From Phycisphaerae bacterium (GTDB lineage Bacteria > Planctomycetota > Phycisphaerae > Sedimentisphaerales > Anaerobacaceae), in NCBI GenBank assembly GCA_028714855.1, contig JAQTLP010000005.1:1-64000 (forward strand): a stretch of 64,000 bases of DNA. The letters are read 5' to 3'. The position numbers and the translations under genes are program-made. Shown here piece by piece: positions 52,743 through 55,493 of this stretch (the stretch's first letter is position 1; each line of letters begins with the position of its first letter). Below the pieces are notes generated by a model. The model was not told the DNA's origin and did no database searches. It saw only the letters and a program-made list of their open reading frames with translations.

Positions 52743-53375
52743 TTAATCTTTAGCCCCAGACTGATAGAGGCCGTGTTCGCGGATATAGTCAGCAACCTGA
52801 GGCTCAAGCATACCGGTAACATCTTGGCCTGCAGTCAGTTTTCTTCGAACCTCGGTGCTGCTTATATCAATTAGAGGGGTTCGGATGACATTTCGCTGAA
52901 GTTTTTCAATACGAGCAGCACCCCAGACGTCCTTAAATTTGGCGAAATCCGGGGGCTCACAGCCGGCCCTGAACATTACACATAAATTGCACTCGTCAAT
53001 CAGTTCTACAATTCCATACCAGCGTGACAATTCACAAATACTGTCAGCGCCCATCAGCCAATAAATTAAGGCTTTATCTCCGCATTCGGCATGGAAGTGC
53101 CTTACGGTTTCCAAAGTATAACAGGGCAGGGGTTTTCTCAATTCATAGTCGTTTAGCTGGAACTTCTCGTTGTCGGCGATTGCAAGAGCTATCATAGCCA
53201 ATCGGTCACTATCACCTGCCTCGGGGAAGGAAGTCTTGAGAGGTGAGCGCTTTGCTGGAATGAAAATGACTTTCTCTGCGCCGATACGCTCTGCTGCTGC
53301 CGCCGCAACAGCAGTATGACCAAGATGAACAGGGTCGAATGTGCCGCCGAACAAGACTATTTTTTTCTTTACCAT
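52743..53375 (-). CDS. nadD: Nicotinate-nucleotide adenylyltransferase
   Basis: The 210-residue enzyme makes deamido-NAD from nicotinate mononucleotide and ATP. The nucleotide-binding start is VLFGGTFDPVHLGH (7-20), and DISSTEVRRKL is the ISSTxIR motif. MGADSICELSRWYG is also typical. NadE, encoded at 6228-7868, uses its product. It abuts hypB tail to tail with no spacer. Confidence 0.96.
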   Translation of the reverse strand: MVKKKIVLFGGTFDPVHLGHTAVAAAAAERIGAEKVIFIPAKRSPLKTSFPEAGDSDRLAMIALAIADNEKFQLNDYELRKPLPCYTLETVRHFHAECGDKALIYWLMGADSICELSRWYGIVELIDECNLCVMFRAGCEPPDFAKFKDVWGAARIEKLQRNVIRTPLIDISSTEVRRKLTAGQDVTGMLEPQVADYIREHGLYQSGAKD

Positions 53376-53929
53376 ACAAAACTAACAGCTAAATTGTGGA
53401 TTGTTTAAAAAATATTACAAAAAAATCAAAAAAACTTTAACTGACAAAAAACGTTAGCAAACGGCAAAAATCCCTGAAAAACAAATTAACTTTCAACCGA
53501 TTCCCGCGTTTCGCAACACCTGAAAAATATACACAGTTGACAAAAACGAGAAACACTTCTCTCGCAATCAAAAGCGGTAAAACCGCCAAATAAGTTAAAA
53601 TAAACGGTTTTAACGCAAATAATCATAAAAACATTTTCTCCACGCGAGTAAAAACTTCATCTGCATCCGAAGCTCTAACAAAAACTTTCGTCACAACAAA
53701 AACAAGTTTCGCCGTCTCACTGAGAAGTATGATAAACGATACAAGAGGTTATGTAAAACATCGATGATAAAAATTTTTATGAAGAATTTCTAAACATATG
53801 GCCGATAAAAATGTAAGATAAACGTGAAATTTTTGTTTGAACAAAATTTTTCAAAGGAATTTAGCTTTTCAAAATAAAGCTAACCAAAATAAGAAAGGAT
53901 TTAATTAGCCTAAAGGAGGTGACAAAATA
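53376..53929. other. AT-rich gene-free stretch
   Basis: About 550 very A-rich bases with no convincing gene. A TTGACA lies at 53537-53542 but no good -10 follows at 17 bases. Small hairpins are visible, such as AGCTTT/AAAGCT near 53866-53883. The last part is the leader of the lysine-rich microprotein, so a long untranslated leader or unseen small RNA is possible. Confidence 0.5.
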
Positions 53930-53995
53930 ATGGCAAAGAAGAAAAAAGCTAAGAAGAAAGCAACAAAGAAGAAAGCCAAGAAGAAAAAAAGATAA
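53930..53995 (+). CDS. Lysine-rich 21-residue microprotein
   Basis: The frame has 21 codons plus TAA. The peptide starts MAKKKKAKKKATKK and is about 70% lysine, with Ala, Thr and one final Arg as the only others. A nearly perfect ribosome binding site, AAAGGAGGTGA, lies about 8 bases before the ATG. A 13-bp terminator follows at 54037-54078. That combination makes a real gene likely despite the size. The composition resembles histone H1-like tails, so binding to DNA, RNA or ribosomes is a fair guess. I know no named family. Confidence 0.65.
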   Translation: MAKKKKAKKKATKKKAKKKKR

Positions 53996-54036
53996 CGTAA
54001 CAATTAGAATCTCAACACTTTGATAAGTTACGTAAT

Positions 54037-54078
54037 AATGGAGGGTTCTCCGACAAAGAGAACCCTCCATTTGATTTT
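54037..54078 (+). terminator. Strong terminator after the microprotein gene
   Basis: A perfect 13-bp stem (54038-54050 with 54058-54070), loop CGACAAA, followed by TTGATTTT. Confidence 0.93.
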
Positions 54079-54215
54079 CGTATTCATGCCTCAATACAAT
54101 CACTCCGCAACCCCAAGACAATACTGCTGATTGTCTTCTTGCAATTAGCCGCTGATTTCATATACTGTTGGTTTGACGAATCTTCGATATTAAGGTGCTT
54201 TTGTTAAATAACATT

Positions 54216-55493
54216 ATGGACCACTTTAATTATAAAAACGGTAAACTGTTTGCAGAAAATACAGATGTCGAGCAAATAGCCGCTGAGGTAGGCACGCCGG
54301 TCTATATCTACAGCAAGGCCACTTTCAAAAACCACTTTCAAAAAATTAAAGAGGCCTACAGCGGGCTTGATACCACAGTCTGCTATTCCGTCAAAGCCTG
54401 CAGCAATATAAATATCCTAAAATTTTTAGCTGAAGCCGGCAGCAGCTTCGACATCGTCAGCGGCGGCGAGTTGTATCGCGTGCTGCAAGCGGGAGGCGAG
54501 CCGTTAAAAATCGTTTTCGCCGGTGTCGGCAAAACCGACAAGGAAATCATCGAGGCATTAAACGCCGGAATAGGCTACTTCAACATCGAATCAGAAGCTG
54601 AGCTGGAAAACCTGACTCGGCTGGCGAAACAGGAAGGAAAACAGCCTAAAGCTGCTCTGCGTATCAATCCTGACGTTGACCCGAAAACGCACAAACATAC
54701 CACTACCGGCAAAAAAGAAACCAAGTTCGGGATTGATATCGAACGTGCGCGAAAAGTTTTCGCTGATTACGGGAAAAATAAGGCAGTGAAACTTTGCGCA
54801 ATCCATATACATTTAGGTTCAGCAGGCAAAACCGTCGAACCGTATGTTGAAGCTATAAAGAAAGCGATTGTCTTAATCGACCAGTTGCGCAGCGACGGGT
54901 TCACTATTGAAGCGATAGATATGGGCGGAGGCTATGGAGCCGATTACACAACCGCAGCAGCACCTGCAGCTGCCGATTACGCCGCTGTTATTGTGCCGCT
55001 GCTGGCTGGTAAAAATCTAAAACTTATCCTCGAACCGGGTGCAAGTATTGCGGCCAATACCGCGATTTTGGTAACGCAGGTTTTATATCTGAAAAGCAGC
55101 GGTTCGAAAAAATTTGTTATAGTCGATGCGGGAATGAACGATTTGATTCGTCCGCCATTGTATAATGCGTTTCATTTCATATGGCCGACAAAAGTCGATA
55201 AAAAATTCATACCCCCCCGCCGAGACAAAGATTTGCAATTGGCCGACACCGAGGTCGTTAGCGTAGTCGGCCCTATCTGCGAAGGTGCCGATTTCTTCGC
55301 ACAGGACAGAGCCCTGCCGCTGGTAAAACGGGGAGATTTCATTTCAATTTTCACCGCAGGCGCTTACGGCTTTACTATGAGCAGCAACTACAATGCCCGC
55401 CCCCGTGCCGCCGAGGTCCTCGTTGACGGCAGCAAATTCTCCGTCATCCGAAAACGAGAAACCTACGAGGATTTAACATCACTGGAAAAGTGA
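54216..55493 (+). CDS. lysA: Diaminopimelate decarboxylase
   Basis: The 425-residue PLP enzyme makes lysine from meso-diaminopimelate. The Schiff-base lysine is in CYSVKACSN (K60 from this start). The phosphate-binding glycines are in DMGGGYGADY and the EPGASIAANT segment is typical, as is GPICEGADFF with its substrate-binding residues. ATG 54216 is chosen; a GTG at 54195 adds seven residues. It is the first gene after the microprotein terminator. It converges with accC. Confidence 0.95.
   Translation: MDHFNYKNGKLFAENTDVEQIAAEVGTPVYIYSKATFKNHFQKIKEAYSGLDTTVCYSVKACSNINILKFLAEAGSSFDIVSGGELYRVLQAGGEPLKIVFAGVGKTDKEIIEALNAGIGYFNIESEAELENLTRLAKQEGKQPKAALRINPDVDPKTHKHTTTGKKETKFGIDIERARKVFADYGKNKAVKLCAIHIHLGSAGKTVEPYVEAIKKAIVLIDQLRSDGFTIEAIDMGGGYGADYTTAAAPAAADYAAVIVPLLAGKNLKLILEPGASIAANTAILVTQVLYLKSSGSKKFVIVDAGMNDLIRPPLYNAFHFIWPTKVDKKFIPPRRDKDLQLADTEVVSVVGPICEGADFFAQDRALPLVKRGDFISIFTAGAYGFTMSSNYNARPRAAEVLVDGSKFSVIRKRETYEDLTSLEK

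Follow-up and report, generated by a model that had tools for sequence, protein, structure and literature searches.

The ribosomal microproteins bTHX and bL37 are tiny, basic and strongly expressed, and both their length and their sequence are fixed. Another kind of short frame, the attenuator leader peptide (trp, his), is rich in one kind of codon and is followed by a terminator and a biosynthetic gene. Among lysine-rich proteins acting on DNA, Hc2 (HctB) of Chlamydia binds it and varies in length by whole lysine-rich units, from 165 to 237 aa (PMC2848022). The C-terminal KPAA domain of Pseudomonas AlgP, a disordered and basic H1-like tail, likewise binds DNA and has a role at polyphosphate granules (PMC9239181). 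We describe here a lysine-rich (K-rich) microprotein gene in a window of 64,000 nucleotides (the whole stretch of DNA that was analysed) from a bacterium with a genome of 2.31 Mb, 98% complete, and compare it with relatives of the lineage Sedimentisphaerales / Phycisphaerae / Planctomycetota. Like Hc2, the K-rich microproteins are lysine-rich repeat proteins of variable length, but at 12-133 aa they are smaller than the chlamydial protein and have no Pfam or NCBIfam match. With AlgP they share a basic repeat tail of H1-like composition. However, AlgP joins an N-terminal domain of 124 aa to its KPAA repeats, whereas here the KKK(A/T/V) chain stands alone and a genome search for PPK1 only found none, which makes polyphosphate less likely as the main target in this genome.

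The K-rich ORF at 53930-53995 is a real, conserved protein gene (Table 1). The initial annotation had seen in it an overlooked and strongly translated-looking gene, and this is well borne out by the conservation, described below, of RBS and frame, of the codon pattern, and of terminator and synteny. It had put the lysine content at about 70%; 14 of the 21 codons are Lys (67%), together with 4 Ala, 1 Arg and 1 Thr. The frame starts 7 nt after the Shine-Dalgarno site and ends 41 nt before a terminator, first described as a perfect hairpin of 13 bp. The terminator is indeed there, although with 14 pairs, and is followed by TGATTTTCGT. Its sequence changes with compensation in the relatives (TGGAGGGTTC to TGGAAGGTTC). 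Folding of the transcript is better than that of shuffles by 4.8 sd, mainly due to the terminator and to the CGUAAC/GUUACG stem, which at the genus level is represented by three genomes only. The consensus scan of the window did not list the likely promoter, and where the window has its TTGAAC ... TAGCTT pair, TTGACA-about 17-TAGTAT is found in several relatives. No Pfam, NCBIfam or Rfam model describes the gene, and a literature search for such microproteins found no description. In addition, a hairpin TTAGCTTT/AAAGCTAA is found at 53860-53881, upstream of the RBS and overlapping the likely -10 region; two other members of the genus have it with compensatory change (TTAGCTTC/GAAGCTAA and TTGGCTTC/GAAGCTGA).

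Table 1 Features of the K-rich microprotein locus and its neighbours (positions in the window)
Feature	Position	Strand	Evidence
K-rich microprotein gene MAKKKKAKKKATKKKAKKKKR, including stop codon	53930..53995	+	Sequence, codon pattern, conservation
Shine-Dalgarno site AAAGGAGGTGA, full complement of the 16S rRNA 3' tail	53912..53922	+	Pairing energy and genome match
Likely promoter region, poor -35/-10-like pair TTGAAC ... TAGCTT	53838..53867	+	Aligned upstream regions, weak
Short 3' UTR with CGUAAC/GUUACG stem	53996..54036	+	Stem seen in the genus, no clear counterpart in other members of the family
Intrinsic terminator, 14 bp	54037..54071	+	Terminator search, comparison of relatives
nadD (nicotinate-nucleotide adenylyltransferase), conserved divergent neighbour	52743..53375	-	Pfam PF01467; synteny
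lysA-type PLP decarboxylase, downstream neighbour (conserved start ATG at 54216)	54195..55493	+	Pfam PF02784 and PF00278

The site AAAGGAGGTGA pairs with the 16S tail at -17.4 kcal/mol, the strongest value for the 1,761 ATGs of the window and one that no other ATG reaches. The 48 larger genes of the window have a median of -6.4 kcal/mol and a best value of -15.5 kcal/mol, even when each is allowed its best alternative start, so that the description of the site as nearly perfect and stronger than those of most full-size genes holds. This ranking of energies covers the ATGs of the window; across the genome the comparison was by the exact 11-mer, which occurs twice in the 2.31 Mb. Another gene was considered for the second copy and rejected, as it is the 3' end of the 16S rRNA in reverse complement. 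The microprotein gene therefore has the sole exact 11-nt complement of 16S outside the rRNA gene. When loci of the family were picked regardless of their RBS, GGAG was found in 39 of 42 and the full 11-mer in 12 of 42.

We searched for the same frame and RBS in the relatives. A DNA search with 401 bases gave matches in 48 of the 61 relatives (28 of the 32 good genomes), spanning the RBS and the frame and, in the near relatives, also the terminator. These matches are A-rich and part of them may be explained by composition; the loci that were read keep frame, RBS and the same neighbours. By a pattern independent of the RBS, at least 83 of 161 genomes in the order contain the K-rich frame; this is a minimum, as the pattern overlooks many members (e.g. 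those of family f7 beginning MAKKAAKK). A stricter pattern of 30 nt, which missed many members, gave at least 53 of the 161. The intergenic region is A-rich, as would suit a chance ORF with a lucky RBS, but the conservation of frame, RBS and synteny refutes this explanation, to which we give practically no weight.

The divergent nadD is located mostly 300-580 nt upstream in the same family (f1), in f2 and f7 and in other Phycisphaerae (neighbour genes outside the window were named by eye from sequence). The peptide, 21 aa here as first described, measures 21, 18 and 23 aa within the genus, with the differences in frame, and 18-79 aa in family f1, where nearly all members begin MAK[KR]. At the nadD position in f2 the frame has 12-16 aa (e.g. 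MAKKKKAAKKKK with GAAAGGAGGTGA), and in two f7 genomes it has 49 and about 133 aa, so that a size of 21 residues does not extend to the orthologues at the same locus, which range from 12 to about 133 aa. From f2 to f7, the frames at this position show a length that is free and a charge that is kept. Such variation argues against a role like that of bTHX or bL37, in which a small basic peptide associated with the ribosome would insert into rRNA and be made in step with ribosomes. The gene is tiny and basic as these are, with a very strong RBS and one main copy at a fixed locus. However, its products have no fixed length or sequence within one order and are repeat-like, and presence is less than near-universal in the clade by the DNA match given above and patchy outside Phycisphaerae, where the strict pattern is rare among Planctomycetota (3 of 246 genomes). 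We consider this explanation unlikely.

On the downstream side, lysA follows the gene in all 19 loci of f1. In f2, f5, f7 and other Phycisphaerae the orthologue also has a strong RBS, and the gene 3' of it is lipoprotein-like, parA-like or convergent, and not lysA. The pairing with nadD is thus wider than the adjacency to lysA, indicating that the nadD pair is the older arrangement. The f1 context would fit a lysine attenuator, in which the Lys codons of a leader peptide sense charged tRNA-Lys and the terminator controls lysA. Actually, 14 Lys codons are followed by a terminator and then by a lysine-biosynthesis gene, and an Rfam search of the window gave only two tRNAs at gathering scores and no lysine riboswitch. 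Nevertheless, lysA adjoins in one family only, the ORF reaches 101-133 codons in relatives, too long for an attenuator leader, and the distance from stop to terminator varies from 32 to 150 nt. No antiterminator was found either, the best pairing of the leader with the 5' arm of the terminator being -6.5 kcal/mol, against a mean of -8.2 for shuffled leaders and -23.9 for the terminator. Synteny, terminator spacing and antiterminator pairing all disfavour lysine attenuation of lysA, and we regard it as very improbable.

Selection at the protein level is seen in the codons. We used 20 loci, 19 of them from f1 and one from another family of the order, with 733 codons after the start: K 492 (67%), A 146 (20%), T 40 (5%), V 32 (4%), R 17, P 3, N 2 and E 1. 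This is the composition of H1-like proteins of the Hc1/Hc2/AlgP type, although members of 21, 29, 52 and 101 aa match no curated Pfam or NCBIfam family, in a test that low complexity weakens. Lys is encoded by AAG (251) and AAA (241) with the third position saturated, and all four Ala codons are used. Of the one-step changes from AAR that drift should produce, we found no stop, no Gln, no Ile/Met, one Glu and two Asn. Length differences among the relatives stay in frame and the Lys/Ala pattern is conserved, so the frame behaves as the initial annotation expected of a genuine gene. Furthermore, runs of ten or more A are absent from 107 distinct ORFs, against 34 +/- 5 expected from a reshuffling of the synonymous Lys codons of each ORF. 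Of 487 isolated KKK triplets, 198 are written AAG AAG AAA and none AAA AAA AAA, which was expected about 42 times. As the sequences are related, none of these codon counts is independent. On iterated AAA ribosomes slide, and protein output is lowered more than by AAG (PMC4363877). The missing A-runs thus point to selection for clean translation, and the K-rich genes look tuned for translation that is both clean and high. The same data bear on a regulatory RNA or ribosome sponge, whose transcript would pair with the 16S tail while translation of the Lys-rich frame would delay or tie up ribosomes, with the peptide as a by-product. The perfect 11-nt complement of the 16S 3' end would suit it, and for the versions of 9-12 codons found in other phyla it is still thinkable. 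However, constraint on charge is seen at the codon level in stretches of as many as 130 codons, and the frames avoid the A-runs on which ribosomes would stall, which leaves such a sponge with a low probability.

Against these alternatives we lean, by analogy and with slightly better than even confidence, to a single-gene unit for an abundant, probably disordered polycation that would act on nucleic acid like a free-standing tail of histone H1, Hc2 or AlgP. The unit would be transcribed alone and its very short peptide made in large amounts through the maximal RBS. Selection would act on net positive charge, arranged in KKK-(A/T/V) units, instead of a fixed sequence or length. The peptide would neutralise and bridge the phosphate backbones of DNA or RNA in a non-specific way, and might help nucleoid compaction or stabilise assemblies of ribosomes or RNA. 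The features that stay constant (a strong-to-maximal RBS, a unit of one gene with an own terminator, and a chain of variable length with Lys triplets spaced by small residues) fit a bulk polycation. HU is present in the genome, and the peptide would therefore be accessory. The H1-like tail proposed by the initial annotation is plausible, as the KKKA/KKKV/KKKT repeats of the longer orthologues resemble an H1 tail; the binding to nucleic acid or ribosomes proposed with it is an inference. Two points speak against the polycation: an architectural protein would be expected to be longer than 9-16 residues, and the perfect 16S pairing could mean a ribosome-related or regulatory role. To our knowledge, the K-rich microproteins would be the smallest H1-like proteins known. 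Should production of the peptide match what its signals indicate, genes skipped by annotation, of 21 aa here and 9-16 aa elsewhere, hold some of the strongest translation sites of these uncultured bacteria. If the polycation is real, a cell can encode a bare one where only charge and spacing matter.

Other K-rich proteins were found in the order and beyond. Five loci of Sedimentisphaerales have a second class of K-rich microproteins, of 20-27 aa. Its RBS is of another type, often ATTACAYGGAGGT, and it appears to be a paralogue located elsewhere in the genome. One further locus codes for a protein of 89 aa and phasin-like outline, which carries an H1-like tail (AAAKKKSAKRPKKAKAAK) on a body that differs in composition.

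We also scanned 84,980 genomes for AAGGAGGT-ATG-MAKKK..KKK and obtained at least 115 loci, at least 96 of them K-rich small frames, where chance would give well below one in the DNA scanned (an estimate from base frequencies). Among the matches listed, the full 11-mer AAAGGAGGTGA is found in 63 of 96 K-rich ORFs with AAGGAGGT vs 1 of 19 other genes. Also among the matches listed, Microgenomates have frames of 9-14 aa (e.g. MAKKKKKKK), mostly lying 3' of a serS-like gene and 5' of a secA-like one, and Rokubacteria have frames mostly of 11-13 aa (MAKKKATKKKKK), several of them with a recG-like gene downstream. The remaining matches listed include Omnitrophota (10-31 aa), Deltaproteobacteria (12 aa), Brocadiales (11 and 31 aa) and, among other Patescibacteria, Parcubacteria and Moranbacteria. 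A terminator-like hairpin often lies 3' of the stop in these look-alikes. Their sequences are too simple to tell common descent from convergence, and homology between phyla is unproven. It is possible, though rather doubtful, that all belong to an overlooked general class of encoded polylysine of 9-130 residues with a maximal anti-16S RBS, which would serve as a charge-neutralising counter-ion of nucleic acid in Phycisphaerae, Microgenomates, Rokubacteria, Omnitrophota and Brocadiales, beside polyamines or histone-like proteins or replacing them. Gene finders would have missed such a class because of its length. The signature of RBS plus MAKKK makes it easy to collect and test.

Some of the look-alike loci have features of their own. 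In six loci of Microgenomates with products of 9-14 residues, a 3' UTR motif like TTGGTAAG..ATTACCAATTGATCAATTGGTA, perhaps a structured RNA, precedes the terminator. In five loci of Rokubacteria another Lys-rich frame ends (..KKAKKKGKKR) ahead of the microprotein of 11-12 residues, and a conserved element like CGGTGGGGGGTGGCGGCCTCCCACCGGCACTCATC comes after it. Two K-rich microproteins stand in tandem at two loci. Finally, three loci from archaea (Methanophagales, Methanosarcinales) contain Lys/Glu-rich frames of 26 residues like MAKKKEKKKRKKGKEEGKKEEEKKKK, with a strong RBS and adjoining a chaperonin-like gene.
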